The translations under genes were made by a program, and so were the position numbers. From Betaproteobacteria bacterium (GTDB taxonomy: Bacteria > Pseudomonadota > Gammaproteobacteria > Burkholderiales > SHXO01): a stretch of DNA of 38,995 bases. The DNA is taken from positions 1 to 38,995 of the forward strand of contig SHXO01000018.1 in NCBI GenBank assembly GCA_009693245.1, in the 5' to 3' direction. Of this stretch, positions 3,775 through 15,834 are shown piece by piece. A model generated the notes under the pieces. It did not search any database. It was not told the DNA's origin and was given only the letters and a program-made list of their open reading frames with translations. Within the stretch, counting starts at the first letter, position 1, and each line of letters begins with the position of its first letter.

Positions 3775-4927
3775 AAGCAGGCCCATCTATCACGGGATGG
3801 GCGGCGAGAAAGCTCTCGTCCAATTCCAGTCCCAAACCTGGTTTTTCCAATGGCCGCACGCAGCCATCCTTGCCCACCGAGTAAGGCGTGCTCACCATCT
3901 TGTCTCGGAACAAATTGTTCTTCGACACATCGCCCTCGAAGTACCCGGCGTTGTCGATGGCGCACAGGAAGTGAATGGCTGCCGCCATGTTGAGCCCGGT
4001 CATGGAGGTGTGCGGATGAATCTTGAGCTTCCATGCCGAAGCGAGATGCGCGATGCGCATGCATTCGGTGATGCCTCCGCTCTTGGAAAGATCGGGTTGC
4101 AAGACGGTGATGTAGCCATCGTCCAGCACGCGCGTGAACTCGAAACGCGTGTAATGATTTTCTCCCGACGCCAGCGGCGTGCGTCCGCAGAGCGAGGCGA
4201 GGCGGTAACTCTCGTAGTCGTGGGGCGGGAAGGGCTCCTCCAGCCATCCCACGCCGTTGGCGTCCAGTCCCGGCATCGCCTCGCGCGCATCGGCGACGGT
4301 GTAACCGGTGTTGGCATCGGTGAGGATGCCGATGCTTTCTCCCAGCGCTTTGCGCACCGCCGACACACGCTGCAAATCGCGTTTTGGAGTATCGCCAATT
4401 CGAAGCTTGATGGCTTTGTATCCCGCTTCGATGTGGGGCATTGCCTCGGCGAGCAACGCGGCCGGTTCCTGGTAACCCAACGACACGCCACCGGCGTAGG
4501 CAGGCACCGGTTTCGATGTGCCGCCGAGCAATTTGTAGAGCGGTAGTCCGGTAGCCTTGCCGCGAATATCCCAAATCGCCATGTCGATGCCAGACATGGC
4601 GAGGCAGGTGCCGGCACCCATGCCGTGACTACCCAGTTGCTTGACGTAAATTTTGTTCCAGATGCCGGTGACGTCGTGGGCATCCATGCCCACCACCAGC
4701 CCGCGCAATGTCGTGTTGACGAGATTCGCCACCGCGCCCGGGCAGCGCCCGTGATGGGATTCTCCCCAACCCACGAGCCCGCCTTCGGTGGTGACCTTGA
4801 CGATGACGGCGTCGCGCTTGACCGCCCGGCCGATGCCGAGCGTTACGCTGTCCTCGGGCCGTACGGGAAACGATGTGGGGTATCCAACTACATCTCGTAT
4901 GCGCATGTCGTTTGAGCCGTTAGCCAT
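3767..4927 (-). CDS. Mandelate racemase/muconate lactonizing enzyme family (enolase superfamily)
   Basis: A 386-residue enolase-superfamily enzyme that abstracts a proton next to a carboxylate, with Mg2+ bound at the end of a TIM barrel. Visible residues: KLRIG (Lys174-x-Arg176 in the KxK position), the metal ligands Asp204 (TDANTGYT), Glu230 or Glu231 (WLEEPF) and Glu256 (ASGENH), and His306 in HPHTSMTG, which suits the second catalytic base of the mandelate racemase subgroup. WDIRGKATGLPLYKLLGG (about 119-136) is also characteristic. The start at 4927 is well supported by GAGGAG a few bases upstream; the frame stays open to 5068 but that part has no family similarity. Substrate is unknown: acid-sugar dehydratase or racemase are both possible. 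It is followed by an overlapping crotonase gene and a TctC-type gene, which suggests uptake and breakdown of a carboxylate. Confidence 0.88.
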   Translation of the reverse strand: MANGSNDMRIRDVVGYPTSFPVRPEDSVTLGIGRAVKRDAVIVKVTTEGGLVGWGESHHGRCPGAVANLVNTTLRGLVVGMDAHDVTGIWNKIYVKQLGSHGMGAGTCLAMSGIDMAIWDIRGKATGLPLYKLLGGTSKPVPAYAGGVSLGYQEPAALLAEAMPHIEAGYKAIKLRIGDTPKRDLQRVSAVRKALGESIGILTDANTGYTVADAREAMPGLDANGVGWLEEPFPPHDYESYRLASLCGRTPLASGENHYTRFEFTRVLDDGYITVLQPDLSKSGGITECMRIAHLASAWKLKIHPHTSMTGLNMAAAIHFLCAIDNAGYFEGDVSKNNLFRDKMVSTPYSVGKDGCVRPLEKPGLGLELDESFLAAHPVIDGPAYV

Positions 4928-5025
4928 GGGTCTCCTCGTAGGGTAATTGTCGTGAGGGGAAATATAACGCTTGGATGGCAATTGGTCCATGTGCGGCTTC
5001 GCCTGGCGGATCTTTGCCCAAGTTC

Positions 5026-5328
5026 TTATCGAAGCCCGCACTTCGAAACGACGGTTGCGCAGCTCCAAGGCCGCAGGCGTTCGAAGTCACATACCGGCAC
5101 CGCGTCACGAAAATCTTCGTAGGTGCCGACGCCGGAAAATCCATACTCCAGGCCAAAGGTGGTGGATCTGTTTGCGCGCAAGATGCCGCGTAGCACCTTA
5201 TCCTGCGTTGCTTGCGGATCGCGGGCCTGCGCGCGCAATCTCCTGGCGCCCACGAACCACTGAATTCGCAAGTACGCTTTGAGTGCGGCGTCCAAGATTA
5301 GTCGCTTGGCCGACATGATAGCGTACAT
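5026..5328 (-). pseudogene. N-terminal remnant of a GH3-family (auxin-responsive promoter-like) acyl-adenylate enzyme
   Basis: The 100-residue reading begins MYAIMSAKRL and carries the start of a GH3 domain: DPQATQDKVLRGILRANRST, TFGLEYGF, YEDFRDAVPV and DFERLRPW (about 38-88). GH3 proteins are acyl-adenylate-forming enzymes of about 500 or more residues; some bacterial ones occur beside lipid genes. Similarity stops at Trp88 (about position 5065), followed by 12 unrelated residues and a stop. None of the other minus-strand frames down to 4928 continues the domain, so about 450 residues including the ATP and substrate sites are missing. This looks like a deletion that joined the 5' end of a GH3 gene to the leader of the enolase-like gene. 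It starts 7 bases after the desaturase stop, as in an operon. Confidence 0.7.
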
Positions 5329-5334
5329 CGAATC

Positions 5335-6612
5335 TTATCGAAACGGTGCCGCCATCTGGCGCAAGAAGCCGGTGGGATAGGCATCGTCCAGAATCCCAAT
5401 CTTGTCCACGGCCTGCCGCTTCGGCAGGTACCAGGTTCCGAAGACCAAGTCCCAAATCAAGGTTGTGCTGGAGAAGTTGCACTGCGCGGTTTTGGGATCG
5501 CGCGCATGATGCCAGCGGTGCGTCTCGGCGCTGCCCACGAAGTAGTTCAACCATCCGTAGCGCAGCCGGATATTGCTGTGCTGGTAAAAACCGTTCACCG
5601 CGTACACGAGAAAATAGCCTGCCAGTACCTCGGGTGCAACACCCAAGAGCAAGAACGGGAGCGTATCCGCCGAGAAGTGCAGAACCTTCTAGATCGGATG
5701 GAACCGGCTGGTATTCATCGAATAGAGTAAGCGCGGCGAGTGGTGGACTTCGTGCAGACGCCACAACGCGGGAAAGTGGTGGCAGGCACGATGCACCCAA
5801 TAGCGCATCAGGTCCACGACCAGGATCATGAGGAGCGTCTGCGCCGCCCAATGCCAATCGTGCGGCCAGAAAGCGGGCCTGTGCGTGTGCGATGCAAGAA
5901 ACAACACGACACCCATGGTGAGCAACTTGGGCAATGCCACCTGCACGAGTGCGATGTACAGTGCATCGGCTTGAACGTGGCCGCGGTTGGGATGCCAGTC
6001 CTCGCGCTCGGGAAACCAGCGTTCCAAGATGAGAATCCAGACCGCGTTGGCGATGATGGTTACATACAGGGCAATCGAAAGCGCAACCACATGCGCCCGC
6101 AGTACCGCGAACAAGGCAAAGGCGCAGGAAACAGAGAAGGGATAGATGACGTAGTGCGACCACTGCGTATCTTCTCGATGACCGGGAGCTTTTTCCGCGT
6201 AGCATAGAGCCATCGTCCAAACGAAGCTCGCCAGCACCAAGTGAAAGAATGCGGGAATCCAGGCCGTAAACCACGGCAGCGCGTTCGGATACAAGGCACT
6301 GGCGAGTATTCTCAGCACGCTTCCAGAGAAATAGACAGCGGCGAATCCGTGTAGGAACTTGGCGGCCATGGGTCGGCGCGCAAGCACACCTTTTCCCACA
6401 CGCCAAGCCGCGCTCGTCATAAGCAACAGAATAACGAGTTGGACGCCCAGAAGCACCGCATAGGGCAGGTTACTTCCTTGAAAGTTTTCGAATGGCGGCA
6501 AGGCAGCCAGGGGAAACCAGCGCTGGCTAGCTTGGCCCGCGACGCGCAGCGAGAATAACGCGGTGAGAAACCAAAGTACCGTGGCATACCAGGAAGAGTT
6601 CCGCCCGTTCAT
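5335..6612 (-). pseudogene. Sterol desaturase/fatty acid hydroxylase family gene interrupted by an in-frame amber codon
   Basis: Read through one TAG at 5689-5691 (codon 308), this frame encodes 425 positions of a polytopic membrane di-iron oxygenase. The first 200 or so residues hold several membrane helices. The catalytic part has VHRACHH and LHEVHH before the stop and HRWHHA after it, the three histidine clusters that bind the iron pair. The sequence across the stop is RFHPI-stop-KVLHFSADTLPF, in a place where relatives normally read FHP(I/L)E, so one substitution (for example GAG to TAG) explains it. The shortened 307-residue product would lack the last histidine cluster and should be inactive. 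Intact genes here also end in TAG, so recoding is unlikely. It leads the minus-strand block with the GH3 remnant directly after it. Confidence 0.8.
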
Positions 6613-7428: not shown

Positions 7429-8436
7429 ATGAAAACCATGAACACGATGTTTCGCGTGTTGCGCAGTCTTCCCGCCGGGGAGTTACGCACCGCGGACCAA
7501 CTTTCCCAGGAACTCGGCATCACGCGCCAAGACGTAACACAGACCGTGGACGAGGCACGAGAATATGGCGTGGATATTCAGGCCCGCCAGGGCGGTGGCT
7601 ATGTAATCTCGGGCGGTATCGATTGGCTGGGTGTGCGCGAAACGCAACAGGCCATGGGAGATTGCGCCGCACGCTACCAAATCAGGATTCTCGATGCGGC
7701 GATATCGACCAACGATGAGGTGCTGGCCGAAGCGGTGAATCCGCCAGGCCGGCTGGTCGTTGCGGCGGAACTGCAATGCGGAGGGCGCGGGAGGCTGGGC
7801 CGCAGGTGGAATTCGGGGTTGGGAAACTCGCTGACGTTCTCCATTCTTTACCGCTTTTCCAAGCGAGGCGCCGCGCTTTCGGCATCCAGTCTCGTAGTGG
7901 GGGTTGCGCTGATGCGAGCTCTTAATGAATTGGGTGTGCGCGGCGCCCTGTTGAAATGGCCCAACGACTTGATCACGCCCGCCGGCAAGCTGGGCGGTGT
8001 GCTGATCGAAACCCATGGCGGCGGTGTGAGCGCCTTGCCTGCCATCGTGATTGGAATAGGGTTAAACGCGCGCTTACCCGATAAATTTGAGTCCGCGATT
8101 GGCCAACCCGTTGTGGATCTATACCGCCTTGGGGTTCGCGCCCCGCGCAGCACCATACTCGGTGTATGCTTACGCCATGTTGAGGAAACGATGGCGCGGT
8201 TCGAGGCGCAGGGATTCGAGAACCTGAGAAAGGAATGGACCGCGCATGCGGCGTATATTGGCCAGCCCGTTGTGTTGGCCCATGCTCATGGCGAAACACA
8301 GGCCGGCGTGATGGCGGGAATTTCTGAAGATGGAGCCTTGGTATTGGCGGCGGAAAATGGCCATCGGAAAATTTATTCCGGGGACATGAGCATGCGGCCG
8401 GCACAATCACCGCACAGTGGCTCGGCGCCATCGTGA
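7429..8436 (+). CDS. birA: Biotin--[acetyl-CoA-carboxylase] ligase, bifunctional repressor type
   Basis: A 335-residue protein that makes biotinyl-AMP and attaches biotin to the carrier protein of acetyl-CoA carboxylase. Residues 1-65 form a winged-helix domain (ELRTADQLSQELGITRQDV), as in repressor-type BirA. The catalytic domain shows GRGRLGRRW (119-127), the adenylate-binding loop, then KWPNDL (176-181) with the lysine that contacts biotin, and GVLIET. A small C-terminal SH3-like domain ends the protein. ATGs lie at 7429, 7438 and 7447 and no clear ribosome-binding site separates them, so the start may be a few residues later. The stop overlaps the start of coaX in GTGA, which suggests coupled translation. 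No biotin synthesis genes are present, so whether it acts as a repressor here cannot be told. Confidence 0.93.
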   Translation: MKTMNTMFRVLRSLPAGELRTADQLSQELGITRQDVTQTVDEAREYGVDIQARQGGGYVISGGIDWLGVRETQQAMGDCAARYQIRILDAAISTNDEVLAEAVNPPGRLVVAAELQCGGRGRLGRRWNSGLGNSLTFSILYRFSKRGAALSASSLVVGVALMRALNELGVRGALLKWPNDLITPAGKLGGVLIETHGGGVSALPAIVIGIGLNARLPDKFESAIGQPVVDLYRLGVRAPRSTILGVCLRHVEETMARFEAQGFENLRKEWTAHAAYIGQPVVLAHAHGETQAGVMAGISEDGALVLAAENGHRKIYSGDMSMRPAQSPHSGSAPS

Positions 8437-13801: not shown

Positions 13802-14290
13802 TTAAGATGACCGAATCTGCTTGACCAAACGCGTGGTCGAACGGTCGTGGATGAATGGGATGGAGTGTACGCGGCCGCCCCAGGAGAGCACCTCGCGCGC
13901 GCCAACGATGCTCTCCACTGGCCAATCGCCGCCTTTGACCAGAATTTGCGGCTGGCACAGGAGAATCAGCTTGAGGGGCGTGTCATCGTCGAAGGAGGTC
14001 ACGACGCTGGCGCATTCCAATGCCGCAATCACCGCCATGCGGTCTTCAAGAGTGTTGATCGGGCGGTCTTCGCCTTTGCCAAGACGGCGCACGGATTCAT
14101 CGCTGTTTAGCGCGACAACGAGGCTCGCGCCCAATGCCCGAGCCTGCGCGAGATAGGTGACGTGACCCCGGTGCAAGATATCGAAACAGCCGTTGGTGAA
14201 TACGATGGGCTTGGGCAAATTCTGGCAGCGTTGCGCAAGGCTCGCGGCCGCGGCGATTTTTCCCTCGAATGGCGGTGGGCTAGAGGCCAT
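13802..14290 (-). CDS. rfaE2: D-glycero-beta-D-manno-heptose 1-phosphate adenylyltransferase
   Basis: A 162-residue cytidylyltransferase-fold enzyme that joins AMP to heptose 1-phosphate, giving ADP-heptose for the LPS inner core. It matches the C-terminal half of E. coli HldE, so in this organism the kinase half must be a separate gene. Motifs: [14 protein letters not shown] with HxGH at 40-43, DRMAVIAAL (about 83-91), and [14 protein letters not shown] (about 118-131). The frame stays open to 14329, but ATG 14290 gives the family length and overlaps the stop of the MerR gene by 11 bases. GmhA, an earlier enzyme of the same pathway, is encoded 2 kb upstream on the same strand. Nothing looks damaged. 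Confidence 0.92.
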
Positions 14291-15203
14291 GGCTTGAGCG
14301 CCACTTTTGCAGCAACGCGGGGACGTCATTCATGTCGTGGAAGAATTCCACGCCTTGCACGAGCTTCTTCGTTCGTGCGCCGTTATTGCCGGTGGCCCAC
14401 ATGGCAATGCCACGCGGCATGAGGGAACGTAATTCCGACAAACCGCAGATGACATCCTGGCTAAAGGAGCCAAATGCCATGCCCACGATAGCCGCGTCGT
14501 GAGCCGCCGCCGCGCGTGCTATTTCCCTGCACGGCGTTTCTGGCCCGAGAGCAAGGCATATGGCCCCTTCCACGCAGCATAGCGCTTCCATGATGAGCAG
14601 CGCGCGAAATTCGCCGGTGAACGTCGCTAGCAGAACACGCGGTGCGCTCCCCTCATGCTGAATGGAATGAATGGCGCTGCGTAAGACGCCCTGAATATGC
14701 TCCGCGTAGAAATGTTCCTCGAATAATCGTAGATCGCCCCGCATCCAGCTACCGCGGACATGTTCATCGAGGGGCACGACAGTATCGAGCACGAAATGCT
14801 TCAACCCTTGGCGCATGAGCGCTTGCGCGAGCTGGCGGCGAAACTCGGCCACGTTGTGATCGCGTAATAGTTCGATGAAAATCGGCAGATCCTCTCTCCC
14901 ATCGTCCAGGGGCGTATTTCGAGGGCTAAGGGATTCAAGCGCGCCGAGGTCCAGGGAGATGATTTTGCCGGGCCGAAGGCCGCGCTCCATCAAGCGGCGG
15001 ATGAGGCGCAGTTTTTCCACCTGCTCGGCAGGGTAGATTCGCTCGCCATTGGCATCTCGTCCAGGCTGGGGGAAACCGTAGCGCCTTTCCCAAATGCGCA
15101 GCGTGTCCTTCGATAGGCCGGTTTCCCTCTCGGCGGCACCAATGCCTACCGCCTCGGTTGGGCCAGGGGCGAGCGGTATGGAAAGTTGTGATGTACGGGA
15201 CAA
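14280..15203 (-). CDS. MerR-family regulator with a CarH/LitR-like sensory domain that lacks the B12-ligating His
   Basis: A 307-residue transcription factor. Residues 20-65 are a MerR winged helix ([19 protein letters not shown]), the version found in MlrA, CarA and CarH. The second part resembles the cobalamin-binding module of CarH/LitR. A helical bundle carries W153-x9-E163-H164, exactly the W-x9-EH motif that packs against adenosylcobalamin. The Rossmann-like part follows, but where CarH has E-x-H-x-x-G it reads GEFRALL (Arg200 in the His place, Leu203 in the Gly place), and the residue after Trp153 is Met rather than His. B12 binding through His is therefore unlikely and another signal is plausible. 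The only possible start in this frame is TTG at 15203, since a TAG precedes it, and there is no clear ribosome-binding site. It overlaps rfaE2. Confidence 0.83.
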
Positions 15204-15255
15204 CTACTAGAGGAAGGCGAATCGCACGGCCATTAGTTTATCCCTGGCCAAGACC

Positions 15256-15833
15256 TTAGTCGACGTACTCGAAGACTCGCACTACTTTCAGTACGCCGGA
15301 TGTCCCGCGTGCGATTTCCGAGGCCATGTCGGCTTCGCGATGGGTGACCAATCCCATCAAGTACACGACGTTGTTTTCCGTCACGACTTTTATGTGTGTT
15401 GCCGAGAGGTCTTTCGTCACCACCAAGCGGCTCTTAACCTTGCTGGTCGTGTAAGTGTCGTTAGCCCGAGCGCTCATGGCGCTGGCGCCCGCCACGGCGG
15501 TTTCATTCTGCACGCTGCGAACGTTTTCGATACCTTTGACTATGTCCGCCAGGGCCGACTTGACCTCTTCGCTGGGAACTTCCCCAGTCAGGAGGACGAC
15601 GCGATTGAAACTGGTGGCGTTGACGTGAACTTGGTCGCCGTAGCGGTCCAGGATGCGGCTGCTCGTCTTGAACTCGATTCCCTGGTCCTCGACGTACACG
15701 CCACTGGTGCGCCTATCCTCGGCGAACATGTAACCCGCCGTGGCACCACCGGCCAAAATCACGGGAACACACCCCGCCAAGGCGGGCGCAAGCGCGAGAA
15801 AACTGGTCAAAATCCAACGCTGAACATATGTCA

Positions 15834-15834
<1 letters not shown>
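15256..15834 (-). CDS. Outer-membrane BON-domain lipoprotein (DolP/YraP-like)
   Basis: A 192-residue lipoprotein with a signal sequence ending in LAGC, giving a lipidated Cys22. Two BON domains follow: about 47-115 (ILDRYGDQVHVNATSFNRVV, LLTGEV) and about 125-192 (VKSRLVVTKDLSATHIKVV, VVYLMGLV), a dual-BON layout like E. coli DolP/YraP (191 residues). DolP helps keep the outer membrane intact and binds anionic phospholipid near division sites. The gene starts in the stop codon of the SIS-domain gene (TAATG), and the order lppC, yraN, SIS gene, BON gene matches the lpoA-yraN-diaA-yraP order of E. coli. Cellular role is inferred from this similarity and synteny. Confidence 0.88.

Follow-up and report, generated by a model that had tools for sequence, protein, structure and literature searches.

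A LitR/CarH-type MerR regulator with a disrupted cobalamin motif and a conserved DNA-binding domain in a Betaproteobacteria genome

The window analyzed here, a 38,995-nucleotide stretch of a Betaproteobacteria bacterium (contig SHXO01000018.1 of assembly GCA_009693245.1), contains a gene for a MerR-type regulator lying between an rfaE2-like gene and a gene for a two-BON-domain protein (Table 1). Its frame is open over the full length, with no Shine-Dalgarno sequence evident upstream of its TTG start and no promoter match at 15100-15400. The overlap between its 3′ end and the longest rfaE2 reading spans 14280-14329, where translational coupling would be possible. A preliminary description of this stretch had called the product a CarH-like MerR regulator, and this identity is borne out by a match to the MerR helix-turn-helix (HTH) model in Pfam (PF13411, 53.2 bits against a cut-off of 21.6, domain present), by a phmmer alignment with the Thermus CarH/LitR protein (E 1.5e-20), and by the predicted fold of the sensor half. 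In that alignment, residues of the window protein stand opposite the Thermus motifs W, EH and E-x-H-x-x-G. By profile, the B12-binding_2 bundle (PF02607) scored 19.3 bits, below its cut-off of 23 (E 0.0014), the B12-binding domain (PF02310) gave no match at E 0.01 in the window protein while matching 26 of 27 aligned members, and the NCBIfam CarH equivalog NF052513 scored 93.3 bits, short of its cut-off of 400. The comparison of a predicted structure with CarH, which the preliminary description had suggested, was carried out on an AlphaFold2 model (mean pLDDT 89), of which residues ~100-305 superpose with VIA-align on CarH (Z about 20), on photocobilins and on the SCHIC domain of AppA, all at Z about 19-21.

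Table 1 Features of the regulator locus and of the candidate target on contig 41.
Feature	Position	Strand	Remarks
CarH/LitR-type MerR regulator gene	14280..15203	minus	307 aa, TTG start
MerR HTH, residues 19-84	14952..15149	minus	32 of 33 conserved family columns intact
W153-x9-E163-H164 upper-pocket motif	14712..14747	minus	intact
Arg200 replacing the axial His	14604..14606	minus	codon CGC; relatives: 187/189 His, 2 Ser
Ala243 and Gly245 replacing conserved Ser (S-x-S)	14469..14477	minus	
Thr271 replacing the first Gly of GG	14391..14393	minus	Gly in 185/189 relatives
Two-BON-domain gene	15256..15834	minus	context only
rfaE2-like cytidylyltransferase gene	13802..14329	minus	longest reading overlaps regulator 3′ end; context only
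BON/regulator junction, 52 bp	15204..15255	strandless	relatives of same synteny: divergent light operon or photolyase gene here
Possible degenerate operator, TGTC-CCG-TACA	15192..15202	strandless	one core mismatch, overlaps TTG start, score 5.0
Apparent small-RNA gene	L151 (contig 41) 7745-8333		C/U-rich loop, terminator-like hairpin, LitR-type promoter sites

Relatives were sought in 150 and then in 399 genomes of the order, and full-length members were found in many genera; 120 of the 399 genomes, the window's own included, had a match at E ≤ 1e-45. Of 582 confirmed candidates, the named loci are the 80 that matched best. The residue counts started from 204 loci; collapsing sequences identical over their last 250 residues left 189 distinct ones, which still include near-identical sequences and, for a few genomes, a second copy. 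The window regulator is 44-51% identical to its best 20 matches, with similarity over the full length. Within the classic B12 motif, which is defined together with W-x9-EH in the accessible text of PMC9304148, it retains E198 and G272 and is altered at R200, G245 and T271. Position 200, which corresponds to the axial ligand (His177 in Thermus CarH, whose light-state upper ligand is His132, according to the available part of PMC10442372), is His in all of the distinct relatives except L093 and L240, which have Ser. The neighboring position 201 is Gly in 188 of the 189 (Ala in the window protein), position 243 is Ser in 180 and Ala in 3 (Ala here), position 245 is Ser in 170, Thr in 14 and Gly in 4 (Gly here), and position 271 is occasionally Ser (4 relatives) and never Thr, the residue found here. 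R200, A201 and T271 thus occur in none of the 189 relatives, and A243 and G245 in a few. The upper-pocket motif, which had been noted at Trp153, Glu163 and His164, is present as described, with W153 common to 188 of 189 relatives and H164 to 187; H116 is also retained.

From the reading E-x-R-x-x-L and from the Met next to the Trp, the preliminary description had concluded that the B12 ligands were lost. That loss holds and is larger than it had appeared, comprising Gly201 to Ala, Ser243/Ser245 to Ala/Gly and Gly271 to Thr besides Arg200, but two of its supposed signs are none: Leu203 is invariant across a 27-sequence alignment, and Met154 is a common family state, with His after the Trp in 0 of 189 distinct relatives. 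Orthologues with His at position 200 had been named as a sign of a point mutation. His is indeed carried by 187 of the 189, so that Arg200 is a lineage-specific change, but since the motif has also lost its Ser and Gly, this change is more than a lone point mutation; with several motif elements altered together, a point mutation or a sequencing error behind Arg200 is unlikely.

Evolutionarily, the change is unevenly spread over the protein. At columns conserved in at least 90% of 29 orthologues, the window sequence deviates most in the cobalamin domain (10 of 34), compared with 2 of 17 for the bundle and 1 of 33 for the HTH (HTH versus cobalamin domain, Fisher p 0.006), the highest cobalamin-domain count for any single one of the 29 orthologues being 4 of 35. 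A 95% cut over 190 sequences gave 7 of 17, 1 of 10 and 1 of 26, respectively (p 0.004), with the window's sensor count the highest of the 190 sequences and that of L093 (5 of 17) next. Among 137 rows with at least 42% identity, the window included, its cobalamin domain ranked first from the lowest in mean identity to the 136 others and its HTH ranked 51st, with an HTH-minus-sensor difference in identity of 0.308 compared with 0.190 +/- 0.029, followed by L240 and L093. In a FastTree tree of the same rows, the window's end branch measured 0.99 against a median of 0.25; its position in the tree was not used, as this long branch joined another long branch. L093 (8001-8882) and L240, both with Ser200, Arg instead of His164 and light-operon genes retained, pair together (support 91) inside a group of four (support 99) whose other members, L006 and L190, retain the axial His, so their His loss looks separate from that of the window. 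As these two come next after the window protein in HTH-minus-sensor identity, better retention of the HTH than of the sensor recurs where the axial ligand is lost.

In relatives, the regulator gene typically lies divergent from a set of light-operon genes named via Pfam (folE2, amine oxidase, DUF1365, CMAS, chalcone-isomerase-like, MFS, DUF3833 and SDR). In the accessible parts of the sources, the furan-fatty-acid genes of Rhodobacter resemble this set, with UfaO carrying DUF1365 (PMC7380195), and the kinds of genes induced by light in P. putida are included in it (PMC9758184). Within the stretch examined per locus, at least one of these genes was present at 90 of 100 relative loci and at least three at 79, whereas none lies within the window. 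An rfaE2 gene occurred at 43 of the 100 loci and a BON gene at 6. At four relatives (L064, L066, L079 and L103), the BON gene occupies the operon's far end, with rfaE2 following the regulator, and at L035 a photolyase gene lies between BON and the regulator. Because BON abuts the regulator in the window, at the place where the synteny of relatives puts the operon, we infer that the operon was lost between them. The control of LPS or envelope functions that the preliminary description had drawn from BON and rfaE2 is unsupported, since four relatives of the same synteny hold the light operon between BON and the regulator, and both genes are best read as inherited neighbors. Operon loss is no predictor of ligand loss and is not established as its cause: among 144 relatives, the stretch examined was without folE2, amine oxidase, DUF1365 and CMAS in 30, all of which keep the His, and L093 and L240 keep operon genes, so the two losses are untied within the family.

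From a genomic perspective, neither DUF1365 nor the photolyase FAD domain gave a match anywhere in the window's genome. The genome encodes MetH and an IcmF-like protein (a 623-aa piece was scanned, giving 927.7 bits against a cut-off of 1500), so the cobalamin cofactor is probably not missing from the cell and a whole-cell loss of B12 is unsupported as the cause. The genus was sampled through four genomes, the window's own and three others. G126 (68% complete) has both a His-bearing regulator and the light operon. In G039 (100% complete), neither a regulator match nor the light operon was found, and between its BON and rfaE2 genes (L161, about 4593-6021) lie a photolyase in two frames and an AurF-like frame, where the split photolyase could be a decaying remnant of a light island or an assembly error. 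In G084 (78% complete), likewise with neither regulator match nor light operon, BON adjoins rfaE2. The photolyase FAD domain was found in G126 and G039 and not in G084. The codon pattern for NCRFLQG, a short-LOV core, occurred once in G126 and neither in the window's genome nor in four others, a query that a diverged LOV domain would escape.

Taken together, we moderately favor the reading that this is a LitR/CarH-type regulator uncoupled from B12 that still binds DNA, with its HTH under constraint, its operon gone and few targets left. Its ancestor would have been a cobalamin-binding repressor of a light-response operon; in the window's lineage, the operon would have disappeared and, before or after that, the cobalamin half would have been stripped of the axial His and of two further B12-motif elements, with the DNA-binding half remaining constrained. 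We infer from the altered motif that the present protein does not bind AdoCbl, and it would most likely bind the family operator independently of B12, either constitutively or in response to another signal, presumably as a repressor. The main competing explanation, which we regard as possible though unlikely, is that of an orphan gene in decay, released from selection once its operon had gone and drifting towards a pseudogene. Such decay is consistent with the absence of the operon from the window and of DUF1365 from the genome, with the lack of a regulator match in two of the three other genomes of the genus, with the weak start signals and with the long end branch; both also count against the favored reading, the branch because it fits relaxed constraint too. 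Against it speak the full-length open frame and an HTH that retains 32 of 33 conserved columns alongside a sensor altered at 10 of 34, as even drift would not spare the HTH.

From the relatives, we derived the family operator as TTTGTC-N3-GACAAA. Of 80 upstream regions, 71 contained the core TGTC-N3-GACA, mostly about 40-50 and 100-120 bp upstream of the conserved Ile21 codon, and its spacing is strict, with 91 sites at 3 nucleotides and 0 to 3 each at 0-2 and 4-8. A search for operator sites near the window's promoters, as proposed earlier, yielded no good copy in the window by a matrix built from sites already containing this core (best score 7.9). The degenerate site at the regulator's own start could be a remnant autoregulatory operator, its score of 5.0 lying within chance (the top site in each of 20 shuffled windows scored 4.3 to 22.1). 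Genome-wide, the sole exact TTGTC-N3-GACAA was set aside, as it lies inside a 602-aa frame read as dnaG. One-mismatch sites numbered six in the window's own genome, with one for a control pattern, and the best of them by matrix lies on contig 41 (L151 7861, score 20.2), followed in the same intergenic region by a site at 8028 (17.2) and a weak one at 7995 (11.8).

None of 2000 dinucleotide shuffles of this 589-bp intergenic region reached a score of 17, and relatives' DNA outside the regulator (1.31 Mb, with a strand-blind mask around it) contained three sites scoring at least 17, one pair and one single. Single sites of this score should be unremarkable genome-wide, with several expected in 3 Mb, since 2 of 20 mononucleotide-shuffled windows also contained one; the close pair alone is unusual, and it was met after several patterns had been tried, among pattern matches rather than in a whole-genome matrix scan. 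The ChaN-like orthologues were rejected as a shared target of the family, since among the 21 other ChaN-like loci L180 alone carries a site of at least 17 (score 19.9). Three proteins of the genome match MerR_1, and by eye the window regulator alone is LitR-like. The contig-41 promoter is a lead, the best candidate among the few sites that may remain. Elsewhere in the genome, on contig 31 (L003), a MerR-type HTH shares a frame with what by eye resemble PAS, GGDEF and EAL domains.

On contig 41, the second and third operator-like sites overlap a TTGACA-17-TATCAT promoter (8006-8034) that seems to drive a small RNA, with C/U-rich stretches downstream followed by a terminator-like hairpin at 8233-8258. 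Promoters and terminators counted by rule (1 and 2) are near chance, given shuffle means of 0.8 and 0.9. The longest frames on the RNA strand encode 55 aa (8052-8219) and, from a TTG and running through the hairpin, 73 aa, and the transcript might encode a small peptide. A 228-nt stretch folds with a z-score of -5.6 (0 of 200 shuffles equally stable) and displays UCUCCUCCUCCUCCCCC in a loop, which could pair with Shine-Dalgarno sequences. It had no Rfam match at the gathering threshold, and of six relaxed matches, all below the curated scores, the top three are small RNAs with CUCCUCC-type stretches (RF02278, 28.0 of 50; RF02837, 20.9 of 49.5; RF02344, 20.2 of 58.8). Among 84 such motifs in the DNA examined, the one on contig 41 alone is followed by a terminator by rule, although the motifs at L130 and L113 have, by eye, hairpins with T runs that the rule missed. 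A possible link of ncS35 of B. cenocepacia with anti-Shine-Dalgarno RNAs had no counterpart in the available part of PMC5760752. We offer only as a doubtful extension the idea that the former photosensor, without its chromophore and light operon, was rewired to control a small RNA with an anti-Shine-Dalgarno-like loop through two or three family-type operators at and across the promoter of that RNA; if true, it would connect a one-time light sensor with a possible translational regulator.

Since W-x9-EH is retained, the upper pocket may still have a role, and another possibility, which we judge improbable, is that it holds a different ligand (haem, another tetrapyrrole or cobalamin bound without the His) sensed through this motif. 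W153, E163, H164 and H116 are all kept, SCHIC domains bind haem, and in the model the sensor resembles the SCHIC domain of AppA in fold (Z about 19) nearly as well as it does CarH. We set this match aside as a pointer to function, since likeness of fold shows no function; moreover, the contacts made by Ser and Gly have been lost too, and in HaAI-2E an Arg at the His177 position is described as leaving little room for AdoCbl (PMC11796333, accessible part). That the protein is still an AdoCbl light sensor, binding weakly through the upper pocket, is highly improbable despite the intact W-x9-EH and the IcmF-like protein in the genome, as the classic motif lacks its His, Ser and first Gly and no DUF1365 or photolyase match is left to regulate.

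Compared with CarH and class I LitR (Thermus CarH, PDB 5c8d and 3whp), the window protein shares the MerR HTH, the four-helix bundle with W-x9-EH and the Rossmann domain, but differs in the absence of the axial His and of the Ser and first Gly of the B12 motif, of a His after the Trp and of the light operon. CarH relatives that function without B12 are already known in CarA and class II LitR, as described in the accessible portions of PMC9304148 and PMC9758184. CarA of Myxococcus, a B12-independent paralogue of CarH, is likewise a CarH descendant acting without B12 (as proposed here for the window protein), but it keeps the B12 motif and EH without the Trp, the reverse of the present case (PMC9304148). 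Class II LitR of Pseudomonas is considered B12-free and, as here, keeps the HTH; the B12-binding_2 bundle alone is recognizable in it, a bundle that in the window protein scores below its cut-off. It controls light genes together with a short LOV protein (PMC9758184), whereas the window's genome gave no match to the LOV pattern and no light operon. HaAI-2E shares the Arg at the His177 position but is a cobalamin-domain protein with AI-2E exporter and diguanylate-cyclase domains rather than a MerR regulator (PMC11796333). L093 and L240 resemble the window in having lost the axial His with the HTH far better kept than the sensor, and differ in standing elsewhere in the tree beside His-bearing relatives, in having lost His164 and in keeping light-operon genes. 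An equal case was not found in the literature searched, which lay mostly outside subscription papers. Uncoupling from B12 in the window protein, if true, would be a further route to B12 independence, in which the other half of the B12 site has been lost, and W-x9-EH alone would be no reliable mark of a B12 photoreceptor. The intact relatives at 44-51% identity, the derived operator and the missing operon make the uncoupling of sensor and DNA binding testable.

A separate RNA element was observed in the relatives' light operon, shortly upstream of the amine-oxidase gene, where a conserved structured RNA combines an outer stem with two hairpins, a small one and one bearing a CUUCUCCUCC-type loop (L088, L096, L099, L104, L108, L111, L113, L118, L129, L130, L229 and L272; also L119 and L124). 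For the four loci tested, Rfam gave no match to it up to E 1, and homology of the contig-41 RNA to this operon hairpin is unsupported, as the model built from it (R1) had no match there at E 0.1. Across 12 sequences, 18 of 25 pairs were changed on both sides, compared with a mean of 9.2 in shuffles (0 of 500 as high), the structure used for this count being derived from the same alignment. Over 199 sources, R1 recovered the 12 sequences from which it was built and two Polynucleobacter loci at the same position.
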